The position numbers were made by a program, and so were the translations under genes. A DNA stretch of 53,754 bases from a virus: positions 1 to 53,754 of IMG/VR virus record IMGVR_UViG_3300010885_066608, one strand, 5' to 3'. Below, piece after piece: positions 33,653 to 52,271 of this stretch; the first letter of the stretch is position 1, and every line of letters starts with the position of its first letter. The notes under the pieces were generated by a model. The model saw only the letters and a program-made list of their open reading frames with translations. It searched no databases and was not told the origin of the DNA.

Positions 33653-34664
33653 TTTAGAAGATGACTATTGGAAAAATTCCGCAGTGGTTAAATTAGAAAA
33701 CAGCGACGGCAAAATATGGAATTTGGAAGATAAAATAATTGAAATAATTTCTGCTATGTTGACACATGGTTCTGTAGTTATATGGTTGAATGGCGAAGGA
33801 CCATGTTTGGATAGTCTAGGATTGATCACTTTATTAGAAAAAATTTGTAGCAAATTTAGTTTCGATAAATCTAAGATTCTAATTGACGTTTGTAATTTAA
33901 TTCAAAAACCTGCACCTTTCACACTGCAAATAAATGGCCTTGGAATGGTTGAACTTGTTAAAATCAATCAAACCAAACTCTTGCCAAGCAAAAACATACA
34001 AAAATACTTTGGATTTTTTATAGGAAGGTCCAACTGGAACAGATTGTGGTTGGGCACTAGGTTGCATTTTCAATACCAAGACAAAACACTCATGTCATTT
34101 CATTATGATAATTCTAGTGATTTTCACAAAGAACATGTGGGCCTAGATGAGTTGTTTTCGCAAACTGAGGACAAAGAATTGTTGGTTGATGCAACAAAAT
34201 TTTTAAACAAGTGTCCAATCATACCATTTGGTAAACCAGCAACTTATCCTATTTTAATCGACCAAAACATGTCTATATTGGAACAATATTCTAAAATATT
34301 TTTAGATCTGGTATGCGAAACTTATACCAGCGGGCACACATTTTTTCCAACAGAAAAAACCTGGCGACCGATCAAAGCCAAGACACCTTTCATTGTCAAC
34401 GGGCCCGTTGACTTTTTAAAAAATTTAAAAAAAGCAGGATTTAAAACTTTTGATCGCTGGTGGAGTGAAGAGTACGATAGCTACGATGGCCGCATGCGAA
34501 TACTAGAAATAGAAAATCTTCTTTTGCATATCAGCTACAAATCTCTTGAAGAACTAGTACAAATATATTCTGATATGCAATCAGTTCTTGATCACAATTA
34601 TTATCTTTTAGAAAATATGACTTCATTGAAACTGCGCAACATTTTTAGAGATCAATCACAATGA
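33642..34664 (+). CDS. Putative glycosyltransferase-like protein, AT-rich gene
   Basis: 340 residues from the ATG at 33642; an earlier in-frame ATG at 33570 would overlap the upstream gene by 83 bp and is less likely. The C-terminal half shows HTFFPTEKTWRPIKAKTPFI, then FLKNLKKAGFKTFDRWWSEE and YDSYDGRMRI. The same arrangement (ITEKTFKAIALEMPFVLV, LEYLRHYGFRTFASV, ESYDEETND) is in the minus-strand gene at 48375, so both belong to one family, probably transferases acting on glycans. The gene is clearly richer in A and T (many TTA and AAA codons) than its neighbours, which suggests separate acquisition. It overlaps the start of the first radical-SAM gene by 4 bp. Confidence 0.55.
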   Translation: MRINLEDDYWKNSAVVKLENSDGKIWNLEDKIIEIISAMLTHGSVVIWLNGEGPCLDSLGLITLLEKICSKFSFDKSKILIDVCNLIQKPAPFTLQINGLGMVELVKINQTKLLPSKNIQKYFGFFIGRSNWNRLWLGTRLHFQYQDKTLMSFHYDNSSDFHKEHVGLDELFSQTEDKELLVDATKFLNKCPIIPFGKPATYPILIDQNMSILEQYSKIFLDLVCETYTSGHTFFPTEKTWRPIKAKTPFIVNGPVDFLKNLKKAGFKTFDRWWSEEYDSYDGRMRILEIENLLLHISYKSLEELVQIYSDMQSVLDHNYYLLENMTSLKLRNIFRDQSQ

Positions 34665-36070
34665 ACAAAGGCGACGAAGTTACCACAGAGTTCAAATCTC
34701 AATTTTTAAACAATGCTGAGCAGATGAAAGCACAGTTGGGTCCGGCCTTGTGCTTGGCCAAATGGAAACAGGTCAGTCTACACCTGCCTACTGGACTCAA
34801 CAATAGTTGTTATCATCCGCCCCTGCACCCAATACCAGTTGAACTGCTGGCCACTAATCCGTCGGCTCTGCACAATACACCCTACAAGAAACAGCAACGG
34901 CAGATCATGTTGCAACAACAACGCCCGTCTGAATGCAACTATTGTTGGACCATGGAAGACAACGGCAAACTCAGCGACCGGCATTATCGATCAGGCGAAT
35001 CCTGGGCCGCTGTAGATTTTGAATCGATAAAAAACAGCACAGGAACAGAAGATGTTATCCCCAGTTACGTTGAAGTTAATTTTAATCATGCTTGCAATCT
35101 CAAGTGTAGCTATTGCAGTCCTCAGTTTTCAAGCAGTTGGCAAGATGAGATCTCAAAGTTTGGCGCTTATCCTACTAGTAGTCCACACAATGCTCCTGAG
35201 CATTTTGTGGGACAACGTAAGCCAATTCCAGTTAGAGACGCCAACCCTTATATTGACGCCTTCTGGTGCTGGTGGCCTGAACTTTATCCAAATTTGAAAC
35301 ATTTCCGCATGACCGGTGGCGAACCCATGTTGGATCGCAATACCTATCGTGTGTTTGATTATGTGTTGGCCAATCCCAAACCAGATCTACATCTCAATGT
35401 GACCAGTAATTTCAGTGTTGACGAAAAAAGTTGGCAACGTTACAAAGGCTACGTCAAACAACTGTGCGAAGGTGAACAGATTGAACACTTTATGCAGTAC
35501 GTGAGCCTGGACTCGTGGGGCACACAGGCTGAATACATCAGACACGGTTTAGATTTTGACCTGTTGTGGGATCGAGTCAACCAATTCTTAACAGAAATTC
35601 CCGGACGAAATTCAATTACCTTTATTGTGACCATGAACAATCTTTCAGTCACTGGCCTGGGGCAACTGTTCTCGGGCATACTGGGCTTGCGAAAACTCTA
35701 CAGCACAGTGTATCAGCGCATCTGGTTTGACACACCGATTCTGCGTCAACCTGCCTGGCAAAGCCTGCAACTGTTGCCAGAAAGTTATGTGGATCAATTG
35801 GAAACAGTGTGGGCATTCATGTTGAAAAACATCGAAACCGAGGCCACTAGATTTCAAGGCTTCAAAGACTATGAAATAGCTCGCTTGGACCGTGACATGG
35901 CCTGGATGCGAGATGGTGCAAAATTGGATCCTGGCTATGTCAATCAAAACAAAGCCGACTTCTATCGTTTCTTTACCGAAGCAGATCGTAGACACGGAAC
36001 TGATTTTTTAAAGACATTTCCAGAAATGTCGGCCTGGTGGGCCGAGTGCAAATACTGGAGTCAACAATGA
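34661..36070 (+). CDS. N-terminal twitch radical-SAM enzyme (1 of 6)
   Basis: 469 residues. The radical-SAM motif is CNLKCSYC (C145, C149, C152), which holds a [4Fe-4S] cluster and cleaves S-adenosylmethionine; the GGEP glycine-rich motif follows at 219-222. Before it lies a cysteine-containing N-terminal region (C31, C50, C92, C95; SCYHPP, ECNYCWTMED) that resembles the twitch/SPASM-like auxiliary-cluster region of the N-twitch radical-SAM family. The substrate is unknown. Related enzymes modify peptides or small molecules; glycan-linked substrates are possible here. The gene overlaps the preceding one by 4 bp and the SGNH-like gene after it by ATGA. With that gene it forms the first of two repeated rSAM-SGNH pairs. 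Confidence 0.8.
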   Translation: MNKGDEVTTEFKSQFLNNAEQMKAQLGPALCLAKWKQVSLHLPTGLNNSCYHPPLHPIPVELLATNPSALHNTPYKKQQRQIMLQQQRPSECNYCWTMEDNGKLSDRHYRSGESWAAVDFESIKNSTGTEDVIPSYVEVNFNHACNLKCSYCSPQFSSSWQDEISKFGAYPTSSPHNAPEHFVGQRKPIPVRDANPYIDAFWCWWPELYPNLKHFRMTGGEPMLDRNTYRVFDYVLANPKPDLHLNVTSNFSVDEKSWQRYKGYVKQLCEGEQIEHFMQYVSLDSWGTQAEYIRHGLDFDLLWDRVNQFLTEIPGRNSITFIVTMNNLSVTGLGQLFSGILGLRKLYSTVYQRIWFDTPILRQPAWQSLQLLPESYVDQLETVWAFMLKNIETEATRFQGFKDYEIARLDRDMAWMRDGAKLDPGYVNQNKADFYRFFTEADRRHGTDFLKTFPEMSAWWAECKYWSQQ

Positions 36071-36759
36071 ATCTACTGGTAAATGGATGTAGTTTTAGTC
36101 GCGGGCCCACAGCATGGCCTTATCATATTGACAATGTCAATGTGGTCAACTTGGCTTGTTCAGGTGCCGGCAATGACTACATATTCAATTCTACCATTGC
36201 AGAACTAAGCCAACGTCAGTATGATTTTGTAGCTGTGATGTGGACACAACTATCAAGACTTGATGTCAAAGTAGACGACATTTCTCAATTTGCCGAGTCG
36301 CCATACACCAGTTATTATCAATCTGCCAAAAATGATTGGCCAGAAAAAATAATCCAATCCACAAACGATCAAGACTATGTAGAAAAAGACTGGGTCTATG
36401 GTTGCGGATTTTTGAACAGTGATCCTGCATTATTAAAAACAAAATTGTTTGATCGTCATTATTTTTATCAAAACGATGATCAATTTAATTATCTGACACT
36501 GGTAAAAATGATTGCACTACAAAACACACTGAAGCAAATGGGCATTCCTTATTTGTTTACGTATTTTAAAGACTACGAGGCCAGACTGGCAAAAATTTCA
36601 AATTTGTATAACCTGCTGGACCAATTATGCATCTATAATAAACAAAATATCTATACCATAACAAAAGACAACAACTGGTATGACCAGGATGGTCTACACC
36701 CTGGCATAACAGCTCATCAGGCATGGGCCAAACTGATAACGCCATTGATATTGTGCTAG
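36067..36759 (+). CDS. SGNH/GDSL-like hydrolase
   Basis: 230 residues from the ATG at 36067, overlapping the preceding stop by ATGA. The start is MNLLVNGCSFSRG, with S9 in the block I position of SGNH hydrolases (GCSF is a common variant in phage and bacterial members). Near the C-terminus WYDQDGLHPGITAHQAW supplies the Asp and His of block V. These enzymes remove or transfer acyl groups, for instance acetyl groups on sugars, or cleave esters. The middle carries several Tyr and Asn and one further Cys. It probably acts on the product of the radical-SAM enzyme encoded just before it, or on the same glycan. It ends in TAG, which shows that TAG serves as a stop in this genome. Confidence 0.7.
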   Translation: MNLLVNGCSFSRGPTAWPYHIDNVNVVNLACSGAGNDYIFNSTIAELSQRQYDFVAVMWTQLSRLDVKVDDISQFAESPYTSYYQSAKNDWPEKIIQSTNDQDYVEKDWVYGCGFLNSDPALLKTKLFDRHYFYQNDDQFNYLTLVKMIALQNTLKQMGIPYLFTYFKDYEARLAKISNLYNLLDQLCIYNKQNIYTITKDNNWYDQDGLHPGITAHQAWAKLITPLILC

Positions 36760-36788
36760 GCAATCGTCGCCAGGATTCTGGATCGCAC

Positions 36789-36817
36789 TTGCAAGTTTTT
36801 GCAAAGGCTGTTATAAT
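36789..36817 (+). promoter_or_regulatory. Sigma-70-type promoter inside the radical-SAM block
   Basis: TTGCAA (36789-36794) and a perfect TATAAT (36812-36817) are 17 bases apart, the optimal spacing. A late-promoter-like GTAAATAC follows at 36822-36829. The start would fall near 36824, 27 bases before the ATG at 36851. It sits in the 91-bp gap between the first SGNH-like gene and the second radical-SAM gene, the largest gap in the block, so the downstream rSAM/carbamoyl operon probably has its own host-like promoter. Confidence 0.7.
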
Positions 36818-36850
36818 ACAAGTAAATACAACCGTTAATAACCAGCATCA

Positions 36851-38188
36851 ATGACAGATTTAGAATTTCGACAACAAGTATTGGACCCGGTGTCCGCAAG
36901 TTTTTGTGCAGCAAAATGGTACAATGCTACCATTTGGTTAGGAAGTGGGCAGACCACAAGTTGCCATCACCCGCCAGCTCATTTGATTGACATTGATAAA
37001 GTCTCTAACAACTCTAGGCTACTGCACAATACTGATCAAAAGAAAGAAGACCGCCGCAAAATGTTGGCTGGTGAACGCCCTGCAGGCTGTGAATACTGCT
37101 GGAAGATCGAAGACATGGGTCGTGATGCTGTGAGTGATCGTGTGTACAAATCAAAGATATATCCTATAGAGGCCCTGAATGAAGCTGTTAACACCCCCAT
37201 CGAACATGATGTCAATCTTAGAACTCTCGAAATCAGTTTTGATCGCACTTGTCAATTTGCTTGTTCTTATTGCAATCCTGCTTTTAGTTCCACTTGGGTC
37301 AATGATATACGCCGGAATGGGCCCTATGTCGGACTTGTTAGCGATGGCCGGAACCATTTTACTCACACTCATGATAATAGTCAACTTTATAAATTCGGTG
37401 AGGTTAATCCGTACGTGGAAGCCTTCTTCGACTGGTGGGAACGGGACCTACACCGCACCCTGCAAGAACTCCGAATAACCGGCGGCGAGCCGTTGATGTC
37501 GGGCTACACCTGGAAACTGATAGAGTGGTTCAAGACCAATCAAGGACGTAGCACAACACGCTTGGCCATCAATTCAAATCTTGGCATTGAGTTAGACAAG
37601 ATGAAAGAATTTGCCCTAGCAGTTGCCACACTGCCCAAAGTAGACCTGTACACTTCGATGGAAGCCACCTGGACACAGGCCGAATATATTCGTGATGGCC
37701 TGGACTACAACCAATGGTTCAACAATGTGTTGTTTTTGTTAGAAGGTCGATTTGTCAATGCTGTTCATGTGATGGGCACTATCAATGCACTGTGCTTGAC
37801 CACTCTGGTTGATAATTTAAATATGCTGTTGAGTTTGAAACAACGCTACGGACGTGACAGTGTGAATTTTACTTTGAACATATTGCGGTTTCCCAGTTTT
37901 CAAAGTGCCCTGATTCTGCCAGACGAATTGCGAAATCGTTATCGTCTACAACTGGAAGCCTGGTTGTTTCACAACCGTGACAATCCTTGCTTGCACGAGC
38001 ACGAAGTCAACCATGTTCAGCGCCTGATTGACTACTTGGATGTGGTAAAAACTCCGCACTCGGAAGCATTTGAATTGCCCAAACTGCGCAATGATTTTCG
38101 ACAGTTTTATACACAATACGATCAACGTCGCGGCAAAGATTTTGTTGCTGCGTTTCCGGATTTGGTGGAATGGTACAACACGCTATGA
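36851..38188 (+). CDS. N-terminal twitch radical-SAM enzyme (2 of 6)
   Basis: 445 residues. Radical-SAM motif CQFACSYC (C134, C138, C141), then ITGGEPLM near residue 214. The N-terminus (SFCAAKW, SCHHPP, LHNT, RPAGCEYCWKIED; C19, C38, C80, C83) is very close in layout to that of the enzyme at 34661, including CxAKW, SCxHPP, LHNTxxKK and YCWxxED, so the two are paralogues. Like that gene it is followed directly, with an ATGA overlap, by an SGNH-hydrolase-like gene. It is preceded by its own strong promoter. The C-terminal 130 residues are Arg, Asp and Trp rich and lack a visible second cysteine cluster. Substrate unknown. Confidence 0.8.
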   Translation: MTDLEFRQQVLDPVSASFCAAKWYNATIWLGSGQTTSCHHPPAHLIDIDKVSNNSRLLHNTDQKKEDRRKMLAGERPAGCEYCWKIEDMGRDAVSDRVYKSKIYPIEALNEAVNTPIEHDVNLRTLEISFDRTCQFACSYCNPAFSSTWVNDIRRNGPYVGLVSDGRNHFTHTHDNSQLYKFGEVNPYVEAFFDWWERDLHRTLQELRITGGEPLMSGYTWKLIEWFKTNQGRSTTRLAINSNLGIELDKMKEFALAVATLPKVDLYTSMEATWTQAEYIRDGLDYNQWFNNVLFLLEGRFVNAVHVMGTINALCLTTLVDNLNMLLSLKQRYGRDSVNFTLNILRFPSFQSALILPDELRNRYRLQLEAWLFHNRDNPCLHEHEVNHVQRLIDYLDVVKTPHSEAFELPKLRNDFRQFYTQYDQRRGKDFVAAFPDLVEWYNTL

Positions 38189-38856
38189 CAATACTGGCAT
38201 TTGGATGTTCAATTGCACACGGTGCAGAAACAGTGGTAGGTGGAAACTGCGAGGCCAACATACCTTTCAGTTATCCGGCGCTGGTGGCCCAGCATCTAGG
38301 AGTCACCTGCATCAACCGTGCATTTTGCGGAAACAGCAATGAAAATATTTTTCACGATGCTGTGGAAATGATTCCTAAATTTGACAATCTCAGTGCAGTC
38401 ATAGTGGGTTGGACCAGTTCGGTACGTGAAACTTGGCAGTGCGATGGCCGCACCTGGCAGTTTATCAGTGGCTGGTGTAATACCGGAGCCATCGCCTGGA
38501 AATCGGCCAGCTATCATGTGCCGGCTGCTGATGGTGAGCCAGAATATTCTGCTGACAGAGATGGGTACATGCCGGCCTTGAAAGAAATTTACCATGTGCT
38601 TTCACGCTACAAGTTTGATTTTGATGAGTATACCAAAAAAAGAAATCATTATGCACAGACACTGCGAGCCTATTGCAACGCCAACAACATTCGATTGATT
38701 GAAACCAGTTGGTCTGATCCTGTGGACGGAGTGGACATTGATCTCAGGCCCGTCGGAGAATGGTGGCCAGCCAATTACGAAGGCCCGCAACGACACCCTA
38801 ACCGGCAAGAACAACAGATGATTGCTGATCAGATCGTCAATCATTACCAACTATGA
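38185..38856 (+). CDS. SGNH/GDSL-like hydrolase, second copy
   Basis: 223 residues from the ATG at 38185 (MTILAFGCSIAHG), overlapping the previous stop by ATGA; an upstream ATG at 38170 is less likely. S9 in GCS takes the block I position, and a late HPNRQEQQMIAD supplies the candidate block V His, although the preceding Asp is not in the usual DxxH spacing. GNSNENIFHDAV near residue 50 could be the Asn-containing block. The gene duplicates the arrangement at 36067, with an N-twitch radical-SAM gene immediately upstream, but the two SGNH proteins are diverged. The next gene overlaps it by 4 bp. Ester or acyl-group chemistry on the shared substrate is the likely role. Confidence 0.6.
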   Translation: MTILAFGCSIAHGAETVVGGNCEANIPFSYPALVAQHLGVTCINRAFCGNSNENIFHDAVEMIPKFDNLSAVIVGWTSSVRETWQCDGRTWQFISGWCNTGAIAWKSASYHVPAADGEPEYSADRDGYMPALKEIYHVLSRYKFDFDEYTKKRNHYAQTLRAYCNANNIRLIETSWSDPVDGVDIDLRPVGEWWPANYEGPQRHPNRQEQQMIADQIVNHYQL

Positions 38857-40178
38857 CAAAAATACTAGGCAAGTACAACTGGCAAGATCGTGTGCCCAGC
38901 TATGTTCCGCTGGAGCAACTGAATGACACGCAAAAACATCGCTTGATGGAAAGCGAAACATTTTGCATGTTGCCATGGATACATCTGCATGCCTGGCCCG
39001 ACGGTCGTGCCTATCCCTGTTGTTTAGCCAATGGTCAACACCCGGTGGGCAACTTCAAAGAAAAAACCATGCGCGAGGTTTGGAACGACACTGACATGCG
39101 TGAAATGCGACTCAACATGCTGTCTGACAAATCTTGCAAACAGTGTAGCGATTGTTACGAGCAAGAGGCCGCGGGTTTTGCCAGCATGAGAAACAACAGC
39201 AATAAAAATTTTGCACAACACATGAGCGAAGTAGAACAAACACAACCCGATGGCAGTTTGCCTGACATGCGCCTGCACTATTGGGATGTGCGTTTTTCAA
39301 ACATTTGCAATTTAAAGTGCCGCAGTTGTGGCAGCATATTCAGCAGTAGATGGTATGACGATGATGTTAAATTGTGGGGCCGAGAACTGAGACCACGTGT
39401 GAGTTTCGCTGGGCGACACGACGAAGATATTTGGGAACAGATGCAAGAGCATGTGCCACACCTGGACCAGATTTACTTTGCCGGCGGTGAACCTCTGATC
39501 ATGGAAGAACACACCCGCATTCTCAAACTGTTGATTGAAAAAGGCAACACTGGTGTGCGATTGATTTACAATACCAATCTTACTGAACTCAAATACAAAC
39601 GAGAAAGTGTGTTGGATCTGTGGAAACATTTCCCCAATGTGTGTGTGGCTGCCAGCCTAGATGACATGGGCGATCGAGCCGCCGTGATACGCAGTGGAAC
39701 CGACTGGGCACAAGTTGAACAAAACATACGAGATTTAAAACGCGAATGTCCGCACATAGACTTTATGATCAGTCCCACACTCAGCATGATGAATATTTGG
39801 AATTTCACTCGTTTCCATCGTTACATGGTTGAGTCTGGATTTATTCGAGCACAAGATTTCAATCTCAATATCTTGCAAGGTCCGCAGGACTACAGAATTG
39901 ACATGCTGCCTGCAGAGATCAAACAGCAGTTCCAGAAGGATTTTGAAGCACATATAGCCTGGTTAGAACCGCGAGATGGTATACAACGTGCCACTGGTGG
40001 ATTTCGTGGTGCCATTGAGTTCATGATGGCCACTGACAACACGCACCTGTTGCCAGATTTTTGGCGATCAGTCAATGATCTGGACTGGAGCCGCAGTGAA
40101 TCTTTGATTTCGGTAGTGCCAGAATTAGAGGCTATCGTGCAATACCGACCAGTTGATACTCGGATACCACTCAAATGA
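38853..40178 (+). CDS. N-terminal twitch radical-SAM enzyme (3 of 6)
   Basis: 441 residues. Radical-SAM motif CNLKCRSC (C152, C156, C159) and FAGGEPL near 210. The N-terminal region is the classical form: FCMLPWIHLHAWPDGRAYPC (C38, C56, C57), then CKQCSDCYEQE (C95, C98, C101), giving enough cysteines for an auxiliary iron-sulfur cluster. It differs from the enzymes at 34661 and 36851, whose N-terminus has CxAKW and HPP instead of CMLPW and PCC. It is most like the enzymes at 40175 and 41397. Genes overlap by 4 bp on both sides, so expression is coordinated. A D-x-D-x-G string (DDMGDRAAVIR) follows the barrel strands. The substrate is unknown. Confidence 0.8.
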   Translation: MTKILGKYNWQDRVPSYVPLEQLNDTQKHRLMESETFCMLPWIHLHAWPDGRAYPCCLANGQHPVGNFKEKTMREVWNDTDMREMRLNMLSDKSCKQCSDCYEQEAAGFASMRNNSNKNFAQHMSEVEQTQPDGSLPDMRLHYWDVRFSNICNLKCRSCGSIFSSRWYDDDVKLWGRELRPRVSFAGRHDEDIWEQMQEHVPHLDQIYFAGGEPLIMEEHTRILKLLIEKGNTGVRLIYNTNLTELKYKRESVLDLWKHFPNVCVAASLDDMGDRAAVIRSGTDWAQVEQNIRDLKRECPHIDFMISPTLSMMNIWNFTRFHRYMVESGFIRAQDFNLNILQGPQDYRIDMLPAEIKQQFQKDFEAHIAWLEPRDGIQRATGGFRGAIEFMMATDNTHLLPDFWRSVNDLDWSRSESLISVVPELEAIVQYRPVDTRIPLK

Positions 40179-41404
40179 AATTGCCACATGACCAATTCTG
40201 CGTATTGCCCTGGGTCAGCTTGGAAGCCAGTCCTATTGGCACAGTGAGACCTTGCTGTCTAGCCGATGACGAAATTGTTGATGACGCGGGCAACAAATTT
40301 GATCTCAACACAGCCACATTTGGCGAAATACAAAACAGTGCTGACATGAAGAATCTGCGCCAGCAGTTTTTGGATGGTGTTAAACCACAGACCTGTAGAA
40401 AATGCTGGAGAGAAGAACGTGCAGGCCGTACCAGCAAACGTATGCACACCTTGGACAGGCTCAAACACATGTTGCCAGATCAAGAATGGTCTGTGGATGC
40501 CAAGCCGCTGATGTTTTTGGATCTCAAACTGGGCAACATCTGCAATCTAAAATGTCGTATCTGTGGTTCTTGGAGTAGCAGTACCTTTGCCACTGAAGAA
40601 CTGGCACATTTACCACCCAGCGAAGATCGTCGATCCAATCATCATTATCAGATGTTGCGACAAGGTGCCTGGCCCAGAGAAAATCAACAGTTTTGGTCTG
40701 AAATTTCCAACATATCAGATCAGATCAGATATATTGAATTTACCGGTGGCGAGCCGTTTATGATCCAAGAACATTTTGACATGTTGCAGGGTCTGATTGA
40801 TAGAGGACTGGCCAGCAACATAGAAATACACTACAACACCAATGGCACACAATGGCCAGCGGCGGCCGAAGACATATGGCGTCATTTCCGCACTGTAGAA
40901 ATAGCATTCAGCATTGATGACGTAGAGTCAAGATTTGAATATCAACGATCCAATGCAGTATGGTCAGATGTGGTGGCCAACATGGAACGGTTCCGAGAAC
41001 TACGCAGTCGGCACAGCAACATACGACTGCAGATTTGTTGCACCATCAACATTTTTAACGTGTACTATTTGGCCACTGTGGCCAACTGGATTGTACAGCA
41101 ACGCATGGATTTTGTCTACTGGAACATGATGCACGATGCCTACTACTTCAGCATCAGTTCATTGCCAGAATCAGCCAAACAGGCCATTGCCGAACAGTTG
41201 AGATCGGCTGATGTACCGCCGCGTATTCGCACAGAATTTGACCATGTGATTGATTTTATGAGTCGCGGAGTCAGCTTGGATGGATTTCAAATGCGTAGAG
41301 AAATTGGAAATCTAGATCGCCGACGCAATCAAAATTTGGCCACTACGGAACCAGAATTTGCCAAATTGATAAACTATACAGATCCCAACAATCCCAATGG
41401 ATAA
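40175..41404 (+). CDS. N-terminal twitch radical-SAM enzyme (4 of 6)
   Basis: 409 residues. Radical-SAM motif CNLKCRIC (C123, C127, C130), then FTGGEPFMIQEH near 189. The N-terminal twitch-like part has FCVLPWVSLEASPIGTVRPC (C9, C27, C28) and CRKCWREERAG (C74, C77). The WSS string after the cluster (CGSWSSSTF) is shared by these enzymes. It overlaps its neighbours by 4 and 8 bp. The C-terminal 90 residues have no further cysteines. The function cannot be narrowed beyond a radical reaction on a substrate bound by the barrel; a different substrate from its neighbours is implied by sequence divergence. Confidence 0.8.
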   Translation: MKLPHDQFCVLPWVSLEASPIGTVRPCCLADDEIVDDAGNKFDLNTATFGEIQNSADMKNLRQQFLDGVKPQTCRKCWREERAGRTSKRMHTLDRLKHMLPDQEWSVDAKPLMFLDLKLGNICNLKCRICGSWSSSTFATEELAHLPPSEDRRSNHHYQMLRQGAWPRENQQFWSEISNISDQIRYIEFTGGEPFMIQEHFDMLQGLIDRGLASNIEIHYNTNGTQWPAAAEDIWRHFRTVEIAFSIDDVESRFEYQRSNAVWSDVVANMERFRELRSRHSNIRLQICCTINIFNVYYLATVANWIVQQRMDFVYWNMMHDAYYFSISSLPESAKQAIAEQLRSADVPPRIRTEFDHVIDFMSRGVSLDGFQMRREIGNLDRRRNQNLATTEPEFAKLINYTDPNNPNG

Positions 41405-42692
41405 GCCCGAAACCCTGTGCATGGCACCGTGGACTCACACATACCTGAGCCCGCAGACTGAACGCAGAATGTGCTGTGCGTCAAGAGAACCGGCACAGAG
41501 TTTTGAACAGTACATAGACACTGCCACCGGCACCGGAGTATATGCTCCAGTATCATTGGAGCAACACTGGAACAGCGATCACATGCGTTCAGTGCGGCGC
41601 AGAATGCAGGCCGGCGAAACTTTGCCCGAATGTGCAGTATGCAATGACAAATTGCTCAATACCGATGTGTATCGCAGTTATTTCAATAGATTGTTTGGGC
41701 ACAAATATCAACAGGCCATGGCTCAAACCGATGCTGATGGACGCACTACTGTACAACCGGTCAGCTGGGATTATCGTTTCAGTAATTTGTGCAATTTCAA
41801 ATGTCGCATGTGCGGCGACATGCTGAGCAGCAGTTGGGAAAGCGAACAACGCGAGCATCAGATGATTAATTGGGACAATCCCAAAAATGCCTGGATGAGT
41901 CCCGAAATCAAAAGTCAGATCACTGCATTTCAAGACAGCCAGATCGAAAGTGAATTTGCCCAAGCAGTGGAACAACATCGGGTTGAAGAAGTGTACTGGG
42001 TAGGCGGCGAGCCACTCATGTATGAACAACATTGGCGCTACATGAAACGCATAATTGAACTGGGCGACGGTCCACGTGTCTATGCCAGATACAACACCAA
42101 TCTCAGTCGATGCCAGTATCGTGGCATTGATCTGTTTGACGACATTCTAAAGCACGTGAGAGATTATCAGATCTGTGCCAGCCTGGACGGAACCGGTGTT
42201 GTGGGCGAATACATTAGAACCGGCTTGAATTACACAGCCTGGCTGACAAATTTTACTCAAGCAGTACAAAATCGCAATCACAGTCGTCAGGTGCGCATTG
42301 ACTTTACCTTGACCCTGCCCGGCATGTTTGAAATTGAAAACATTTTACAATTGGCACAACAATACAACACAGAAATATTGGCCAAAGTGGTATTTGCATT
42401 TACTCCAGACATTGTGATGAGTCCGTTGGCCCTGCCACGACACCTGTTGGAGCCGTGGATCGATGAACTGCTACAAACAGCATCATCGGGAGCTGTACGA
42501 GACATGTTGATTCAATTGAAAACTCGTCCCACATTTGAAGAACAATGGCCGGACCAATATCGTCAAGGGCTTGCTCAAGGCCGGCGTCGTGTTTTAAAAT
42601 TAGAAAATATCAGAGATGCCGACACCGACATGGCCACAATACTGTCAGCACGACCCGAGATACTAGAATGGTGGAACCAAATTGACAATTAA
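41397..42692 (+). CDS. N-terminal twitch radical-SAM enzyme (5 of 6)
   Basis: 431 residues. Radical-SAM motif CNFKCRMC (C132, C136, C139), then WVGGEPLM near 204. The N-terminal part has LCMAPWTHTYLSPQTERRMC (C8, C26, C27) and CAVCNDKLLN (C79, C82). It lacks the third C-terminal Cys seen in the enzyme at 38853. Start overlaps the previous gene by 8 bp. It is followed by an unknown gene whose TTG start lies 11 bases before its stop. The enzyme probably belongs with 38853 and 40175 as a triplet arising from tandem duplication followed by divergence. Confidence 0.8.
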   Translation: MDKPETLCMAPWTHTYLSPQTERRMCCASREPAQSFEQYIDTATGTGVYAPVSLEQHWNSDHMRSVRRRMQAGETLPECAVCNDKLLNTDVYRSYFNRLFGHKYQQAMAQTDADGRTTVQPVSWDYRFSNLCNFKCRMCGDMLSSSWESEQREHQMINWDNPKNAWMSPEIKSQITAFQDSQIESEFAQAVEQHRVEEVYWVGGEPLMYEQHWRYMKRIIELGDGPRVYARYNTNLSRCQYRGIDLFDDILKHVRDYQICASLDGTGVVGEYIRTGLNYTAWLTNFTQAVQNRNHSRQVRIDFTLTLPGMFEIENILQLAQQYNTEILAKVVFAFTPDIVMSPLALPRHLLEPWIDELLQTASSGAVRDMLIQLKTRPTFEEQWPDQYRQGLAQGRRRVLKLENIRDADTDMATILSARPEILEWWNQIDN

Positions 42693-45358: not shown

Positions 45359-45984
45359 TGAATTATAAAAAATTTCAACGTTATGAACAACAGGCATTGA
45401 GCACTGTTTACAGTGAAGTGCCGGGCGGGTTTCACGATCAAATTATCCCTGAGTTTGCTCAAAGATTTTTACCTGAGTTCAATCTACAACCCAATGCCTG
45501 CATCATTGACATAGGTTGTGGTCCAGGACTGTTTGCGCAGGCTGCACACAAATTGGGCTATCAAGATGTCACAGGAGTCACGCTCAGTCCTGATGATGTG
45601 GCTGCATGCGAGTCAGCTGGATTAAAAATAAAACACGCTGACATGAGTGACTTGCCCTGGGCAGACGGCAGTGTGGATTTTATCTGGTGCAGACATGCAC
45701 TAGAACACAGTCCTTATCCTATTTTTACATTGTACGAATTTCATCGTGTGTTGAAACCCGGTGGCCAAGCATTTATTGAAGTGCCAGCACCTGACAATCA
45801 GCGCACCTGGATGCACGAAAACAATCCCAACCACTACAGCATATTAGGCAACAAGATGTGGCAAGGATTGTTTGGCAAGGCCGGATTTGAAACTCGAGCC
45901 CACTGGGTGTATGACACTGATCAACAGTTTGACGAAGGACTAGTCAAAGAAATTTCTCTGTTGTATGGTATCCAGCGTCTGTAG
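45358..45984 (+). CDS. SAM-dependent methyltransferase
   Basis: 208 residues, class I fold. Motif I is IIDIGCGPGLFAQA (near 49-62), then DMSDLPWADGSVDFIWC (motif II/III area), RHALEHSPYP and EFHRVLKPGGQAFIEVPAP (motif post III). It begins on the last base of the carbamoyltransferase stop (TAATG), so it is part of the same operon. The substrate is probably a hydroxyl or amine of the same compound or glycan. The gene ends in TAG, with an opposite-strand gene eight bases beyond, so the operon ends here. No clear terminator is seen; a bulged CCATTGGTT/AACCATGG inverted repeat lies at 45986-46006. Confidence 0.85.
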   Translation: MNYKKFQRYEQQALSTVYSEVPGGFHDQIIPEFAQRFLPEFNLQPNACIIDIGCGPGLFAQAAHKLGYQDVTGVTLSPDDVAACESAGLKIKHADMSDLPWADGSVDFIWCRHALEHSPYPIFTLYEFHRVLKPGGQAFIEVPAPDNQRTWMHENNPNHYSILGNKMWQGLFGKAGFETRAHWVYDTDQQFDEGLVKEISLLYGIQRL

Positions 45985-45992
45985 ACCATTGG

Positions 45993-47312
45993 TTAATCAA
46001 ACCATGGAGCCCATTCAGGCACCACTTGTGGCAATGATTTTTTACTGACCAAGTCTTCGCGACGCATGTGTTTAACAAATCGTTCCAACTCTGCAGGGTT
46101 AAACTTGGTACTTTCGATTATGGATATGAGCGCATCCACAGTGTCGAGCCAGTTGCGTTCCCAGTTGTTGTACTGCGGCAAAGCATAGTGCTCGTAGCGT
46201 TTGCGACCCTGAGTCAGTCGTTCCAACGCCAGATTCCGTAATTCAGGCGGCAATATTGCCGCGCTCAAGTATGATTGAAACACTGTGCTGACTGTGATAA
46301 ATTTTACATTGTTGGCATGGCACCAATCTACAAAATCCATGGCACTGAGCAAATTGACACCGGTGGCCACATAGTTGATGATATTGTGCAACTCAGGAGT
46401 CTGATTTATTCTCAATGCATTCGCTGAAACGGTGCTCCAGTCAGCACCGCGCCGCTGATACTCAATTACATCGCCAACTCCGTCTATGCTCACAGTGTAT
46501 AACACTCGTTTGAATTTTTTAAATTTTTCTACTAATTTTTCAGGATAACTGCTGGCATTGGTCAACAGCGTTATTATTATATTTTTAGCCAAATCTTTTT
46601 CAACCAGGTAATCAATCAACCGATGCACTTCGGGTTGTAATACAGTTTCTCCGCCGGTGAATCCCAATATTTTTACATCTTTGACAATGTCAAAAAAATC
46701 AGCGTCAGGCAATCCGGTTACTGTTTTTAACTCATGATTGTTTTTACGTTCGATGCCGTTTTCTTTTCCAATCAGTTTTTCTATCTGTATTTCAAATGTG
46801 ACACGACCGCTGCTGGCCCCGGGTCTGCACATCACACAGGCATAATTGCAATAATTGCTGGGCATGTAATCTAGTGCGTGGACAGCATCGGATATTAATC
46901 CATTGGCAATAACCCGTTCTACTTCAGCAATGATATCCATGTCTAATTGTTCATACAGATATTCATTGTTGACTATGCGTGGACTAGACGCACCCTGTCG
47001 TTCGGCTTGGATACAGGCCTGACACGCAGTCGATTCTTCCATACGTCCGTCTAAAAACAGTTGGCGCAACTGTATCCACCGATCGGTGTTCCTGGACTCC
47101 ATTATGCTGGAATTTTGTATGTTCCAATCGGTCATTGACCAAATGAGACTACAGGGCCTCACATTGTTGTTGCCGGCCTGGCCTTCTGACACTGCATTGG
47201 AAGTTGAATAAAAACTGTTCATAAATGGTGCCAGACACATTTTAGGACCAAAACGGTCATACAGTTTTTGTACATCGGCTTTTCGTGCCGTGATACGGTC
47301 ATAGTCATTCAT
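45993..47312 (-). CDS. N-terminal twitch radical-SAM enzyme (6 of 6)
   Basis: 439 residues from the ATG at 47312, whose ATGA overlaps the stop of the amidinotransferase gene; a longer frame to 47378 lies inside that gene and is unlikely. Radical-SAM motif CNYACVMC (C155, C159, C162), then FTGGETVLQPEVHRLIDYLV, where the usual P of GGEP is replaced by T. The N-terminal part has MCLAPF (C26), VRPCSL (C54) and ACQACIQAERQG (C97, C100). It is the only one of the six on the minus strand. It is paired with the amidinotransferase, which suggests that both act on the same compound. A lysine-rich stretch with VEKFKKFKRVLYTVSIDG follows the barrel. Confidence 0.8.
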   Translation of the reverse strand: MNDYDRITARKADVQKLYDRFGPKMCLAPFMNSFYSTSNAVSEGQAGNNNVRPCSLIWSMTDWNIQNSSIMESRNTDRWIQLRQLFLDGRMEESTACQACIQAERQGASSPRIVNNEYLYEQLDMDIIAEVERVIANGLISDAVHALDYMPSNYCNYACVMCRPGASSGRVTFEIQIEKLIGKENGIERKNNHELKTVTGLPDADFFDIVKDVKILGFTGGETVLQPEVHRLIDYLVEKDLAKNIIITLLTNASSYPEKLVEKFKKFKRVLYTVSIDGVGDVIEYQRRGADWSTVSANALRINQTPELHNIINYVATGVNLLSAMDFVDWCHANNVKFITVSTVFQSYLSAAILPPELRNLALERLTQGRKRYEHYALPQYNNWERNWLDTVDALISIIESTKFNPAELERFVKHMRREDLVSKKSLPQVVPEWAPWFD

Positions 47313-48331
47313 AAGTAACTTTCCAATCCGCCACGACGGTGTAGGTCCTGCGTACAACAACTGATCCCTCCATCCCAAAAATAACTGTGGCGCAGTTCAC
47401 TAATGATCGGATTGATGCGATGTCGTTTACAAAAATCAAACACTTCTCGATTGTAGGCACTGAAGATTACATTTTCTTCGTCCAACACCAAGCAGTTGAC
47501 ATCGAACACAGTTTCGGCTACAAAGCCGGTCCATTTGTTTAGATAGGTGTCAACAAACTGTGTAAACTCAGGTGTGGGATTTTGTCCCTGCACGTACCAG
47601 GCACCGGGATTGGAGTCGTATTTGAATTTGCCCACTTCCATAGCAGCCCAAATTGAACTATCCCAAATTTTGCACACTTCCCAACCAGGGAAATCACGTG
47701 CCAAATTCAAGTGCATGTCGTGTTTGCTAGAAAGAATAACACCGGGTTTGAGAATGGCAAACACTGCATCGCCGTGACCGTCGGTGACAGCTTCGTGTAT
47801 GCGATATTCAGGTCCCAACACGTTGTCACGAATCCATTCGGTTTGTTCGGGACGCAGGTAATCACTGTTGTCAAAAAACACATCACGACCCACACGCACA
47901 ATGCACGAGGCTGATGCACCATTTAAGATACAGTCAGGATTCCATTCGTTGCCACCATGTGGATTTACCACCTGATCAGCATTGGCATCGCACACCTCAT
48001 TGAGCTCGCGTATGGGCAACACACGCAACAGTTTTTGCCCCAAACTGATCTGCCAGTCTCTGGGAGTCAGCGGTGGCAATGGTACTCCATGGCCAGAACT
48101 CTGTAAATTTACAAAACTGCTTTTGCTGGGCATGGTGGGCCTGTGAACCACAGCACCGTACTGTTCAATGGTGCGTTGTAGATTGTCAAGGTCTTCTTCG
48201 GTTTCTGCCAGGATTTGTTGCAGTTGATTGCGAACCTGTGCATCTTCGATATGGTCAAAGTAGTCGGGCGGATAAGCACGACCCACTATGACTTCTTCCA
48301 GCGGTTGCCAGGAGGTGTAGCTGTTGATCAT
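47309..48331 (-). CDS. Amidinotransferase (glycine/inosamine amidinotransferase-like)
   Basis: 340 residues. The C-terminus FWDGGISCCTQDLHRRGGLE matches the end of arginine:glycine amidinotransferases, where the nucleophilic Cys lies in GGxHCxTxDxRRRG. The catalytic His is in DGHGDAVFAILKPGVILSS. A segment ASCIVRVGRDVFFDNSDYLR corresponds to the third conserved block, although the expected catalytic Asp of that block is not obvious (Ser or Cys takes its place by my alignment). The family transfers an amidino group from arginine to an amine; StrB1 does this in streptomycin formation. Next to carbamoyl, aminosugar and epimerase genes this suggests guanidination of an aminosugar. GAAAGG lies upstream of the ATG. 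Confidence 0.8.
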   Translation of the reverse strand: MINSYTSWQPLEEVIVGRAYPPDYFDHIEDAQVRNQLQQILAETEEDLDNLQRTIEQYGAVVHRPTMPSKSSFVNLQSSGHGVPLPPLTPRDWQISLGQKLLRVLPIRELNEVCDANADQVVNPHGGNEWNPDCILNGASASCIVRVGRDVFFDNSDYLRPEQTEWIRDNVLGPEYRIHEAVTDGHGDAVFAILKPGVILSSKHDMHLNLARDFPGWEVCKIWDSSIWAAMEVGKFKYDSNPGAWYVQGQNPTPEFTQFVDTYLNKWTGFVAETVFDVNCLVLDEENVIFSAYNREVFDFCKRHRINPIISELRHSYFWDGGISCCTQDLHRRGGLESYL

Positions 48332-48374
48332 TGTGGCCTTTCAGAGGGTGTATGATATTTAATTGATTGCAAAT

Positions 48375-49472
48375 TCAAAGTATAAATTCTGACAGCATGG
48401 CAGTGAGTTCCTGCCACAGCACTGTGCTGAAATTTCCTCGATAAAAATGATTGTAATTGTGTTCAACTGTGCTCAAACAGGCCCGATGAATCTGTTGACG
48501 TTCGGCCACAGACTGATTGTCTAGGTCTTTCAGCAACCGAGTGACTTTTTCTATGCGCCGTATGTCATTGGTTTCTTCATCATAACTTTCGTCCAAAACT
48601 GATGCAAATGTTCTAAATCCATAGTGTCTCAGGTATTCCAAACTGCCAGCGGGCGCCACCAACACAAATGGCATCTCCAGTGCAATGGCCTTGAAAGTTT
48701 TTTCGGTAATGTGTTGTCTGCGACCAAAGTACACAGTTTCTGTGGGCACATATACCAGGCTGTCAGCCGCTTCTTCAAAGTTAGTAAGCCAACAACTGGT
48801 CATGGCCTGTGTGGCTTCGCCAGCAAACAGTTGTGGCAACGGAGCCTGGTCCATCACTGTGGCAATGTCCTGGTATACATTGTTGTATTTTTGTGCTATA
48901 CTAGTGATGTTTACACCTTCTGCTGGACAGATTCTAGGAGCACTGACATGGTTGTGTTCCAGTTGATTTTTAAAAATGTTATAAAGAAAAAGAACTCGAT
49001 GATCTCGCTTGCCGCCCACAATACGATTCGGACTCATAAAGGTCTGTGTGGGTTGACGATTGCGAGCCCTGGGCATCAAAAATGTTCGATCATAGCCGCG
49101 GAACCAGTCCTGACAGGCCCAGCCGTGATAAAAATAGTAGTGCGGAATCCAGCCGTATCGATCACAAAGCTGTTGCACATTTTCACCTTTTTCGCTCACA
49201 ATCACATGTCCGGGCACATTGTCGCGTTGAGCCAGATCACCGTTGCGTTGCTTGACAGAATCAAACAACGGTGCATAAAGGTCAGCGTCCACAGGTTCTT
49301 GGTCATGAAAAAACACATAGTCAGTTTCTTTGTCGGCGTCATTGCCGTAGTTAAATAATGCTTCAGGACTGGTATTGCCCGGTGGGTCACAAAAAAACAT
49401 ACGGGTGCCGCCCAAGTTATTTTTTAACCAGGGCCAAAATATATTATCGTAAATTTCGTCTATTCTAATCAT
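48375..49472 (-). CDS. Putative glycosyltransferase-like protein, family of 33642 gene
   Basis: 365 residues. The C-terminal half has RRQHITEKTFKAIALEMPFV, then LEYLRHYGFRTFASVLDESY and DEETNDIRRIEKV, the same arrangement as in the AT-rich gene at 33642; the two families are clearly related. The N-terminal half contains YVFFHDQEPVDADLYAPLFD and HVIVSEKGENVQQLCDRYGW, plausibly the first Rossmann domain of a GT-B enzyme. Its start codon overlaps by two bases the start of the opposite-strand gene at 49471, so promoter and ribosome binding elements of each lie inside the other gene. The 43-bp gap to the next gene downstream is the only spacer here. Confidence 0.6.
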   Translation of the reverse strand: MIRIDEIYDNIFWPWLKNNLGGTRMFFCDPPGNTSPEALFNYGNDADKETDYVFFHDQEPVDADLYAPLFDSVKQRNGDLAQRDNVPGHVIVSEKGENVQQLCDRYGWIPHYYFYHGWACQDWFRGYDRTFLMPRARNRQPTQTFMSPNRIVGGKRDHRVLFLYNIFKNQLEHNHVSAPRICPAEGVNITSIAQKYNNVYQDIATVMDQAPLPQLFAGEATQAMTSCWLTNFEEAADSLVYVPTETVYFGRRQHITEKTFKAIALEMPFVLVAPAGSLEYLRHYGFRTFASVLDESYDEETNDIRRIEKVTRLLKDLDNQSVAERQQIHRACLSTVEHNYNHFYRGNFSTVLWQELTAMLSEFIL

Positions 49473-51270
49473 GTTTGATGTATTCTATTCCGGACCAAAA
49501 CCCAATCAATTTGCACACGAACAAGCAGCAGATTCTATCGAGCATGCACAGCAGTTGAGTCGCACTAGATATTTCTGGTGGATCAATTATTTAACTGACT
49601 ACACAGATTGGGATTTTTTATGGGAGCCAGTGCCGTGGGAAAGTCATCAACGGCATGCCTGGCCCAGCCAATGGCAAAAAGATGCCGGCACATACCTGGT
49701 GCCGCGAGGCGGCTACAGTGAAACCAACTATAGAAAAACGCCAGCACTCAAACGCCTGCCAGACTCGGAACCCTGGATCATACCTGACACATTTGAGTTG
49801 GGCAGCTTTGATTGGAGTTGGCACCCAGATCCCACCGAACCGTTGTATGTGTATCAGTTTGGCACACAGCACCAAAAAACTGGTGGGCCACAATATGTGA
49901 CTCCGGGCGCCACAGATATCAAATTTTGTGATCAAGTGCGAGGCAATGTCAAGTCTGGTATCACACCGATTGTTGAAATCAATCATCTGGATGGCAATGC
50001 GGGTCAGGTGCCCGGCACTGTTGCCACTGTGCGATACTTTGACAACTACAAAGATGTGCTCACACGCATAGCCAAAACCACTGACCACGAATATATCTGG
50101 ATTGTCAGCAGTGTGTGTGATTATACTGCATTTGATTTCTCATGGCATCCCGAACTGTGGCAAAACACCATGCTTCATGTGTTCGCCAGTGGCAATCAAA
50201 AGTTTGGTGACACCTTCTACATGCATGTGCCCACATTCCGCAATCGCATTGATCAGTTTGAACTATTAGATTGGTACGATGTAAACTTTATTTCAGTCAG
50301 TGTGCCACGCAGGCCCATGCCAGTGATTGTACACGATGCCGACAGTCAAGTGGATGCAGTAAAAACAACCGAGTGGGCCGGTCCCTTGGCCACGTTTACC
50401 AATCATGATTATGTGCCCGGCAACCTGGTCACTGTGTCACTGTGGCGTGAAAAAACCAAGACCATTGTGCCCGTCAGCGACGGTGCTGGAACTGTGGTGG
50501 TACCGCGTGTGGCTGTTCCTTATATACAAACACAGTTGTACGATTACCCATACATAGATCGTTCGCACAGGATGTTGAAAGATCCACAACTGGACATTGT
50601 GTTTATCAGCAATGGTGAAAGCGAGGCAAGACGCAACTATGAACATTTATGTTCGACAACACTCGGCACTTCTTCTCGTGTACATTGGGTCAAAGGCATC
50701 AACGGACGTGTGGCAGCATATCATGCAGCCGCCGAGGCCAGCACAACGCCTTGGTTTTTTGCTGTGTTTGCTAAACTACAAGTCAATGAACAGTTTGACT
50801 GGGCTTGGCAACCTGATCGCATGCAACAGGCCAAACACTACATATTTCATGCACACAATCCTGTGAACGGATTGGTATACGGTCACCAGGCCATGATTGC
50901 ATACAATAAACGACTGGTGTTGGAAAATACAGGGCAGGGCCTGGACTTCACACTAGATCAACTGCATGAAGTTGTGCCCATTGTATCCGGCACAGCCAAC
51001 TATCACACCGACGACTGGGCATGCTGGCGCACTGCATTCCGCGAAGTGCTCAAACTGCGAGCCAGCTTGCCTGATGTGGAAAGTGAGCACAGACTCAACA
51101 AGTGGCTCACTGTTGATACCACAGCCGGGCAATGGAGTCGCAAGGGTGCCGAAGACGCTGTGGAGTACTACGACTCAGTTGACGGTGACTTTGCGGAACT
51201 GCGAAAGAGTTACGAGTGGTCGTGGCTGGCTACGTATGCGTTTATGAAACGCAGTCTAATAGCAAATTAA
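49471..51270 (+). CDS. Repeat-containing transferase-like protein (599 residues)
   Basis: The protein repeats one module about four times. Each unit has a strand, then DFxW(E/H)P or similar, then a segment like HHVFASGNQKxGDTxY: DWDFLWEPVPWESHQRHAWP, FDWSWHPDPTEPLYVYQFGT, FDFSWHPELWQNTMLHVFAS and FDWAWQPDRMQQAKHYIFHA (starting near residues 47, 113, 221 and 437). The last unit, with DIVFISNGESEARRNYEHL and VNGLVYGHQAMIAYN, matches the single-domain protein at 31878. The DxD-type motif of that relative (IDGDN) is not preserved in the repeats, so some units may only bind. It stands alone on the plus strand, starts on the CATG shared with the gene at 48375, and its TAA stop overlaps the stop of the next minus-strand gene (TTAA). 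Confidence 0.6.
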   Translation: MFDVFYSGPKPNQFAHEQAADSIEHAQQLSRTRYFWWINYLTDYTDWDFLWEPVPWESHQRHAWPSQWQKDAGTYLVPRGGYSETNYRKTPALKRLPDSEPWIIPDTFELGSFDWSWHPDPTEPLYVYQFGTQHQKTGGPQYVTPGATDIKFCDQVRGNVKSGITPIVEINHLDGNAGQVPGTVATVRYFDNYKDVLTRIAKTTDHEYIWIVSSVCDYTAFDFSWHPELWQNTMLHVFASGNQKFGDTFYMHVPTFRNRIDQFELLDWYDVNFISVSVPRRPMPVIVHDADSQVDAVKTTEWAGPLATFTNHDYVPGNLVTVSLWREKTKTIVPVSDGAGTVVVPRVAVPYIQTQLYDYPYIDRSHRMLKDPQLDIVFISNGESEARRNYEHLCSTTLGTSSRVHWVKGINGRVAAYHAAAEASTTPWFFAVFAKLQVNEQFDWAWQPDRMQQAKHYIFHAHNPVNGLVYGHQAMIAYNKRLVLENTGQGLDFTLDQLHEVVPIVSGTANYHTDDWACWRTAFREVLKLRASLPDVESEHRLNKWLTVDTTAGQWSRKGAEDAVEYYDSVDGDFAELRKSYEWSWLATYAFMKRSLIAN

Positions 51271-52271
51271 TGTCCGCAGTTGTGATCGCATACTACAAGT
51301 CTACCTTGTTGGTAAGTCTCAATATTCCAGGCCGATTGTATTAAAGAAAACCATTCGATGCATTCTTCTAATGGGTATTGTAATGCATTATTTTTTGATA
51401 TCAATGGTTGTAATTGACTGTTGATTGCCTGGTGATATGTTCCTGAACCATAAGTTGATGGCGCAAATCCGGTCCAGCAACAGGGACTAACTTCTCCATA
51501 TGCCGATATGTAGATACTGGATCGTTTCACTGCCCAGCACGAAACATGTTTTTTTGTAGAGTCGGCGTCGACCACGTCTTCTATCTGTATTGTGTCGGTT
51601 TTTTTCTTGTCAAACAAGATTTTAAAGTCTGTTGACCCGTCAACAGACCCAAGATTGTGCGTGTGTTCGCCGCAATGATTAAACACTGGACCGGTGCTAC
51701 GTCCTTCGTTGGTCAATTCAAAATTAGCAAACCCCAATGTCTGACTCAATTTGCGACATTGTTCAATTTGATGCTGATTATGTTTAAATTCAATCATCTT
51801 CCAGATTGCTTTGCCACCGGCCTCAATAAAAGTTTTTGCATTTTTTATTACTGTATCCCATATTGTATTTTGTCTATATAGATGATGCGTATCCGCTAAT
51901 CCATCAAGACAAAAGTATATATGAACTTTCAAATCGGCAAGTCCTTTCCAAAAACTTTTATCTCTAGCAGATCCATTTGTATAAATGCTGATGTGTAAAT
52001 TAGGATTTTGTTGTTTGAAATACTCAATGATCTGTAACCCTTCGGGATTCATGACAATATCTCCAAAATTTCCACAGACGCGAATCCCCTTCAATTGTTG
52101 TAAAAAATCAGTGGTGAAGATTTTTTTTGAATTTTCTAATGTAAAATGTGTTTCTGGATACCCATTATTATATTCATATCCAAAGAAATTTCGTGGGCAT
52201 AATGGACATGCGGCGTTACAAAAAGTGCTAAGTTCAAGATGAACGTCACGTATATCTTTATAGTTGATCAT
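51267..52271 (-). CDS. Radical-SAM/SPASM domain enzyme
   Basis: 334 residues from the ATG at 52271, whose ATGA overlaps the stop of the aminotransferase gene. Radical-SAM motif CNAACPLC (C18, C22, C25) is at the very start, and YGEVSPCCW near 257 belongs to a C-terminal SPASM-like domain with further Cys (CWAVK, CIEW, CDHNC) that could bind auxiliary clusters. This is a different class from the six N-twitch enzymes here: its extra cysteines follow the barrel rather than precede it. Related enzymes modify peptides or small molecules. The gene is AT-richer than the neighbours. It is co-transcribed with the aminotransferase gene, so a link to aminosugar chemistry is possible. Confidence 0.82.
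   Translation of the reverse strand: MINYKDIRDVHLELSTFCNAACPLCPRNFFGYEYNNGYPETHFTLENSKKIFTTDFLQQLKGIRVCGNFGDIVMNPEGLQIIEYFKQQNPNLHISIYTNGSARDKSFWKGLADLKVHIYFCLDGLADTHHLYRQNTIWDTVIKNAKTFIEAGGKAIWKMIEFKHNQHQIEQCRKLSQTLGFANFELTNEGRSTGPVFNHCGEHTHNLGSVDGSTDFKILFDKKKTDTIQIEDVVDADSTKKHVSCWAVKRSSIYISAYGEVSPCCWTGFAPSTYGSGTYHQAINSQLQPLISKNNALQYPLEECIEWFSLIQSAWNIETYQQGRLVVCDHNCGH

Follow-up and report, generated by a model that had tools for sequence, protein, structure and literature searches.

A fixed radical-SAM gene array in large T4-like phages: a candidate operon for glycan tailoring

What might a phage build with seven radical S-adenosylmethionine (radical-SAM) genes set close together behind its tail genes? 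The question is raised by IMGVR_UViG_3300010885_066608, a linear IMG/VR record whose whole stretch of 53,754 bases was analysed here and is called the window. An initial annotation had seen an island of such genes interleaved with glycan-tailoring genes; as an island in a host it does not hold, since the whole window is a phage contig. PHROG searches found a late sigma factor, baseplate hub and wedge genes and one 4,347-residue protein in the first 26 kb, and the cluster sits downstream of these tail genes. The T4-type Gp23 capsid gene was found in four of five large relatives (E ~1e-98) and not in the window itself, and relatives' contigs carrying the cluster reach 344 kb; the carriers are large T4-like viruses of freshwater bacteria. 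We lean towards reading the cluster as a phage-encoded biosynthetic operon for an unusual, heavily tailored glycan, whose likeliest use is remodelling of the host surface.

Five divergent enzymes and protein X in a fixed order

Six of the seven proteins (R1 to R6, Table 1) matched NF033640 (NCBIfam N_Twi_rSAM, twitch domain-containing radical SAM protein) at 221-414 bits against a cut-off of 170 bits. They share with that family an N-terminal set of cysteines, at least four in each, and the CX3CX2C motif, followed in all six by GGE, as had been annotated. The six are mutually distant (21-30% identical to R3), and CX3CX2C and GGE are kept in 98-100% of relatives' copies. R7 is indeed a seventh radical-SAM protein (PF04055 at 35 bits, CX3CX2C present), of another subfamily: read from its best start at 52271 it has neither GGE nor N-terminal cysteines, and its NF033640 score of 39.5 bits is far under the cut-off.

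Related loci were collected by scans for R3 (14 loci), for protein X (at least 80) and for R1 (at least 80), giving 174 loci from more than 60 metagenome identifiers, with some contigs shared between scans. Among these listed loci each of R1-R5 was present in 145-161, X in 141 and the carbamoyltransferase in 122, many absences being contig ends. The exact order R1-R2-R3-R4-R5-X was found in 101 of the 121 listed IMG/VR loci holding both R1 and X, and R5 and X were neighbours in 115 of these 121. The fixed part of the annotated set of seven is R1-R5; R6 (7 loci) and R7 (5) are accessories, as are the SGNH-like proteins 1 (18) and 2 (4) and the methyltransferase (1). Recurring neighbours, which the initial annotation had proposed to look for, were thus found. 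The two grounds on which it would have been withdrawn, single genes scattered without shared neighbours and a misassembly of host and phage DNA, are both ruled out, because the cluster is retained in relatives and its junction with the tail genes is found again in independent contigs. The core is under purifying selection, with ratios of non-synonymous to synonymous substitution (dN/dS) of 0.05-0.10, which are rough because several dS values are near saturation. R3 and R4 form one fused protein in four phages.

From R2 (36851) through the methyltransferase successive genes share 1 to 11 bp, provided that a 33-codon open reading frame (ORF) is counted, which bears out the coupling first described. 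The strand needed correction for 45993, 47309, 48375 and 51267, all on the minus strand, and the earlier gene list was incomplete: X, the 33-codon ORF (43779-43880) and the glycosyltransferase-like (GT-like) genes from 29984 had been overlooked.

Protein X belongs to an unmatched family. Neither of two models, with predicted local distance difference test (pLDDT) scores of 70 and 92, matched any fold in the PDB; the final one, built from a 68-sequence alignment, is a confident prediction, and its best PDB hit had E 0.15. In BFVD the fold matched nine uncharacterised phage proteins; in Atu_ph07, whose protein resembles X by fold, a profile search returned nothing. Among the genomes of 84,980 species X occurred in only two contigs. 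The first carries phage-like genes; in the second X lies at the contig end, in a metagenome-assembled genome (MAG) that also contains a marine phage contig with ~15 radical-SAM genes.

In a 72-row tree R1 to R6 each formed one clade at 100% support. Marine phage copies grouped beside R1, R2 and R3, and a separate clade took in five of the six bacterial copies; the deep joins are unsure because branches are long. These clades indicate that the copies arose mostly by divergence within phages and predate the split of the freshwater lineages. A recent origin from a host is rejected on the per-enzyme phage clades, the separate bacterial clade and the near absence of X from the species' genomes.

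Further copies were noted in passing. Relatives G001-G005 (156-344 kb) have 11-14 NF033640 matches each, many outside the cluster. In loci L006 (5604-7544), L124, L125 and L133, R1 has an extra N-terminal domain of ~177 residues, starting MIIAFYPGSGGNRYY, which by eye looks sulfotransferase- or P-loop-like. A marine T4-like phage contig in a Rickettsiales MAG (MED657; G009 contig C6, loci L192 and L193) packs ~15 radical-SAM genes into 27 kb behind GT-like genes that it shares with the window, the reference genome G009 being contaminated with phage; relatives of R7 in this marine array are 26-39% identical. R1-like, GTc, GT10-like and SGNH genes also occur on a 335-kb contig of a bacterial MAG (L212, G509 contig C57), probably a marine jumbo phage binned with the bacterium. 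The cultured relative Vibrio phage K566 has three annotated radical-SAM genes. Moraphages (PMC12619734) were rejected as the lineage, judged by their description, in which genomes are smaller and radical-SAM genes go unmentioned.

A 33-residue protein beside the carbamoyltransferase

The 33-codon ORF occupies the sole apparent gap in the coupled run from R2 to the methyltransferase. It was found in 129 loci including the window, and is missing from three loci that have X and enough sequence beyond it. This set was drawn with a less strict motif (L-[KR]-E, two to five residues, DP[FYW][IVL][YF]), so that DP and the aromatic positions were partly selected; the strict Phe, Ile and Tyr, the final Lys, and Glu14 and Tyr17, both invariant, were not. 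When the ORF behind X was taken without any condition on its C-terminus, 59 peptides were 33 residues long and shared the same C-terminal residues. The ORF encodes a translated protein, because third codon positions vary and second ones do not (codon-position entropy 0.41/0.22/1.10) and all 13 near-invariant residues are encoded by more than one codon.

Judged from the 129 loci, this protein was a strong candidate for a radical-SAM precursor peptide; that support was lost in a scan by sequence pattern that used neither X nor the enzymes. In the 120 loci of that scan the DPFIYK ending is invariant by construction, because the pattern itself fixes it; the family has ~30-45 residues and a median net charge of +8. 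Of the 111 loci with 500 bp downstream, at least 97 encode a carbamoyltransferase next, 61 of them at the same 4-base overlap, and two apparent exceptions do encode the enzyme. On the upstream side, X was found in 24 of the 97 loci that extend 1.3 kb, and NF033640-like genes in 29 of the 83 that extend 2.6 kb. The protein therefore tracks the carbamoyltransferase, mostly without X nearby, and not the radical-SAM array. Set against the marks of a ribosomally synthesised and post-translationally modified peptide, a small conserved ORF beside enzymes is present, but it goes with the carbamoyltransferase and not, as a precursor should, with the radical-SAM enzyme.

The enzyme that it accompanies is a NodU/CmcH-family carbamoyltransferase, as annotated: both Pfam halves (PF02543, PF16861) score above cut-off and are shared with known members, cyanophage copies included (PMC3037559). 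It differs from five cultured cyano- and pelagiphage copies inspected, upstream of which no RDPFIYK protein was seen, in having this protein there. The searches made gave no Pfam, PHROG or literature match to the 33-residue protein, and tblastn gave none in cultured phages, where the BLAST low-complexity filter may hide it. Its N-terminal part shows moderate amphipathicity (mean z 1.2 relative to shuffled sequences), which would allow membrane binding. In a single-cell record (Marine virus AG-345-D19, L341) an amidinotransferase, an SGNH-like gene, a small ORF, a carbamoyltransferase and an N-twitch gene lie within ~5 kb; this small ORF is divergent and ends SDPYIYEE.

HypF carbamoylates the C-terminus of HypE. 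By comparison, the RDPFIYK protein might be a carrier or substrate that is carbamoylated at its C-terminus by its partner and passes the group on, or that is built by R1-R5 and X into a class of product that has no known parallel; we consider this unlikely.

Tailoring genes and regulation

Of what a surface-polysaccharide biosynthesis cluster would be expected to contain, DegT, epimerase and GT-like genes are present here, and no exporter or ligase was recognised. The annotated amidinotransferase proved sound: its orthologue profile matches the solved human AGAT, SxtG, HsvA and StrB1 (E 1e-17 to 1e-24; no Pfam match), and the active-site Cys and His-x-Asp are present. It is 80-86% identical in the nearest lineage and occurs in only 28 of 174 loci. 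It shares the profile match and catalytic Cys motif with AGAT, StrB1 and SxtG and differs from them in being phage-borne, beside GT-like and radical-SAM genes. The methyltransferase also stands (PF08241, E 2e-21). The two proteins called SGNH-like hydrolases keep a resemblance only, since the GDSL Pfam models do not reach their cut-offs (E 0.004 and 0.012; the best scores 18 bits where 32.9 are needed); the SGNH1 slot holds a GT10-like gene in most relatives. Among the GT-like proteins, a and c had no PDB sequence match. In the cultured pelagiphage Mosig, aminotransferase, MoaA-like, carbamoyltransferase and methyltransferase genes are consecutive.

Between the tail genes and the cluster, a hairpin and a promoter-like pair are conserved. 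The pair was found in 51 of 59 distinct orthologous gaps against 32% in shuffles, typically as TTTACC-17-TATAAT at a fixed distance to the start, and the hairpin stems vary in sequence yet stay paired. These features suggest that the operon is probably transcribed apart from the tail genes. That the hairpin might act as a terminator is only a guess, because its T-run is short. The T4 late promoter TATAAATA had one site in the window, equal to chance expectation, and was set aside.

Two observations concern the flanks. The 4,347-residue protein is a single ORF (13367-26410) in the tail region, a gene in which relatives differ (cluster c3); downstream of it, 27242 and 28611 resemble fibre or structural proteins, the 27242 product being 37% identical to a tail-fibre-like protein of the marine phage contig. 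The low-GC segment 32808-34664 (38% near 33-35 kb) resembles a recently swapped cassette between GTc and R1, containing the GT10-like gene and ORFs 32840 and 33272, which have no counterpart in the 174 related loci.

Table 1. Position of, and evidence for, the features of the cluster and its surroundings in the window
Feature	Position	Strand	Evidence and occurrence
Three genes between giant tail gene and cluster (26573, 27242, 28611)	26573..29594	+	PHROG structural and unknown phage families; position kept in relatives
Hairpin (AAAAGGGGC..GCCCCTTT), then sigma-70-like promoter TTTACC-17-TACAAT	29592..29678	+	Between 28611 and 29679; promoter at 29644
GT-like genes a, b, c (29984, 30780, 31878) and small 31514 gene	29984..32810	+	91-125 of 174 loci; also in marine contig
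GT10-like protein, accessory	33642..34664	+	Family alignment A6, invariant TEK motif; 19/174 loci; no PDB sequence match
R1, N-twitch radical-SAM	34661..36070	+	NF033640 302 bits; 154/174 loci; own clade, 100% support
SGNH-like protein 1, accessory	36067..36759	+	PF00657 E 0.012, below cut-off; 18/174 loci
Sigma-70-like promoter TTGCAA-17-TATAAT, TG before -10, upstream of R2	36789..36817	+	Promoter scan; true intergenic gap
R2, N-twitch radical-SAM	36851..38188	+	NF033640 283 bits; 161/174 loci
SGNH-like protein 2, accessory	38185..38856	+	PF13472 18 bits, below cut-off; 4/174 loci
R3, N-twitch radical-SAM	38853..40178	+	NF033640 414 bits; 148/174 loci
R4, N-twitch radical-SAM	40175..41404	+	NF033640 342 bits; 145/174 loci
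R5, N-twitch radical-SAM	41397..42692	+	NF033640 296 bits; 148/174 loci; adjoins X in 115 loci
X, protein of unmatched family and fold	42682..43782	+	366 residues; 141/174 loci; model pLDDT 92.4, predicted template modelling score (pTM) 0.89
33-residue ORF MNWIKNLYNRVLLEIRYRKKLKELRKRDPFIYK, ends RDPFIYK	43779..43880	+	Overlaps X and carbamoyltransferase; 129 loci
NodU/CmcH-family carbamoyltransferase	43877..45358	+	PF02543 E 1e-37, PF16861 E 1e-48; PHROG 1601 315 bits; 122/174 loci
SAM-dependent methyltransferase, accessory	45358..45984	+	PF08241 E 2e-21; 1/174 loci
R6, N-twitch radical-SAM, accessory	45993..47318	-	NF033640 221 bits; 7/174 loci
AGAT-family amidinotransferase	47309..48331	-	PDB profile match AGAT, SxtG, HsvA, StrB1; Cys motif DGGISCCTQDLxR and GHGD kept in orthologues
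GT10-like protein	48375..49472	-	Alignment A6; no PDB match
599-residue protein with GTc-like C-terminal part	49471..51270	+	53/56 loci with 6 kb after carbamoyltransferase
R7, radical-SAM of another subfamily, accessory	51267..52271	-	PF04055 35 bits; 5/174 loci
DegT-family sugar aminotransferase	52268..53365	-	PF01041 E 4e-55; 35/56 loci with 6 kb after carbamoyltransferase
Nucleotide-sugar epimerase, truncated by contig end	53319..53753	-	PHROG 540; full-length epimerase-like cluster c4 in 38/56 loci

What the operon may make

Bacterial relatives of the enzymes point to glycans. Among 398 Pseudomonadota genomes, NF033640 genes were found only in the MAG with the phage contig and in two others. 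In genome G086 four consecutive NF033640 genes share one O-antigen cluster with WbsX, TylF, Wzm-like and RfbC/D-like genes, with accA- and dnaE-like genes adjacent, and one of the four is fused in frame to ABC_tran and Wzt_C, the exporter ATPase Wzt; in G121 one lies beside an epimerase/dehydratase and a GT2. Glycans are favoured over peptides because the bacterial genes, few as the cases are, lie mostly among O-antigen or nucleotide-sugar genes, and because the phages have DegT, epimerase and GT-like genes of their own. Two bacterial N-twitch proteins (L202, 10420-12198; L201, 4235-5959) have a beta-rich-looking insert between the radical-SAM motif and GGE, perhaps carbohydrate-binding.

On this basis, we propose that DegT, epimerase and GT-like proteins would assemble a sugar chain, on whose units R1-R5 would act successively by radical chemistry, for example dehydrogenation, epimerisation or deoxygenation; R3 and R4 may take neighbouring steps, because some phages fuse them. 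The carbamoyltransferase, AGAT-type amidinotransferase, methyltransferase and SGNH proteins would add or remove decorations, with X as partner of the radical-SAM set and the 33-residue protein, basic, partly amphipathic and with a fixed C-terminus, as partner of the carbamoyltransferase, perhaps a docking subunit. The product would most likely remodel the infected cell's surface polysaccharide, a virion glycan being a close second. Several points weigh against this proposal. Peptides are frequent targets of SPASM/twitch enzymes as a whole, and in a genome sampled from another phylum (G588) an NF033640 gene lies outside any glycan cluster. The label GT depends on motif and context, because the GT-like proteins have no PDB sequence match; the position beside tail genes would fit a virion target as well as the host; and the presumed expression window has promoter-like sequence as its sole basis.

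That the operon decorates the virion, by glycan or protein modification of tail fibres or capsid that tunes adsorption or shields the particle, is the alternative we take most seriously, at perhaps one chance among several: the cluster comes immediately after the tail genes in freshwater as in marine phages, and glycosylated virions are established in mycobacteriophages (discussed in PMC12619734). A conserved sigma-70-like promoter and hairpin of its own nevertheless divide the cluster from the tail genes, and GT-like and radical-SAM genes in the same region of pelagimyophages were read as modifying the host O-chain (PMC7029224). A peptide product, with the 33-residue protein as a ribosomal precursor like PqqA or MftA whose RDPFIYK end is processed by the radical-SAM enzymes and the carbamoyltransferase, would explain the small size, variable N-terminus and invariant C-terminus of a clearly translated ORF lying between X and the carbamoyltransferase, beside five twitch-type enzymes. 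It appears rather unlikely, given the pattern scan, in which the carbamoyltransferase and far less often NF033640-like genes accompany the family, and given that neither a protease nor a peptide transporter was recognised among the genes of the cluster. Thus, where the initial annotation had envisaged a pathway for a modified small molecule, peptide or glycan, the multi-enzyme pathway with recurring neighbours and the glycan branch stand, while the peptide branch lost support because the only conserved small ORF tracks the carbamoyltransferase and not the array. Phages do apply group transfer, glycosylation and radical-SAM chemistry to bases, and the enzymes might alter phage nucleotides or bases against restriction; we regard such DNA hypermodification as highly improbable, since most bacterial family members found sit in polysaccharide clusters, no base-modification gene was recognised in the cluster, and thymidylate synthase-like and dCMP deaminase-like genes lie only downstream, in some relatives.

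T4-like phages with dense radical-SAM arrays had been described before. The T4-like marine genome TARA_ERS488813_N000010, published in 2017 with 12 radical-SAM genes (PMC5332604), resembles the window phage in having many in one T4-like phage, whereas its description, on which the comparison is based, is an inventory of Fe-S proteins without fixed core, X or peptide. Pelagimyophage host recognition clusters, published in 2020 (PMC7029224), likewise combine GTs and radical-SAM cassettes beside tail fibre genes; that region is hypervariable, whereas here five enzymes and X are fixed and SGNH, GT10-like and other slots vary. Unexplained lipopolysaccharide clusters of large cyanophages have also been published. 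The statement that such enzymes usually come singly is not borne out as worded, given the 2017 and 2020 papers and the marine phage contig. Compared with NF033640 generally, for which the sources searched gave no function, the phages here hold five divergent paralogues in one order with X. The literature searched contained no account of a fixed core with X, of the RDPFIYK protein or of the Wzt fusion, paywalled papers and preprints being outside its scope.

Radical-SAM genes of aquatic phages have so far been listed as auxiliary genes without a pathway, and the fixed core turns them into one testable pathway: five enzymes, with a partner whose fold matches no solved structure, are maintained by strong selection in large phages that come from over 60 metagenomes. 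The bacterial Wzt fusion is a first concrete link of the uncharacterised NF033640 family to surface polysaccharide, and the RDPFIYK protein, below the usual gene-length limits, offers a new handle on phage carbamoyltransferases across lineages.

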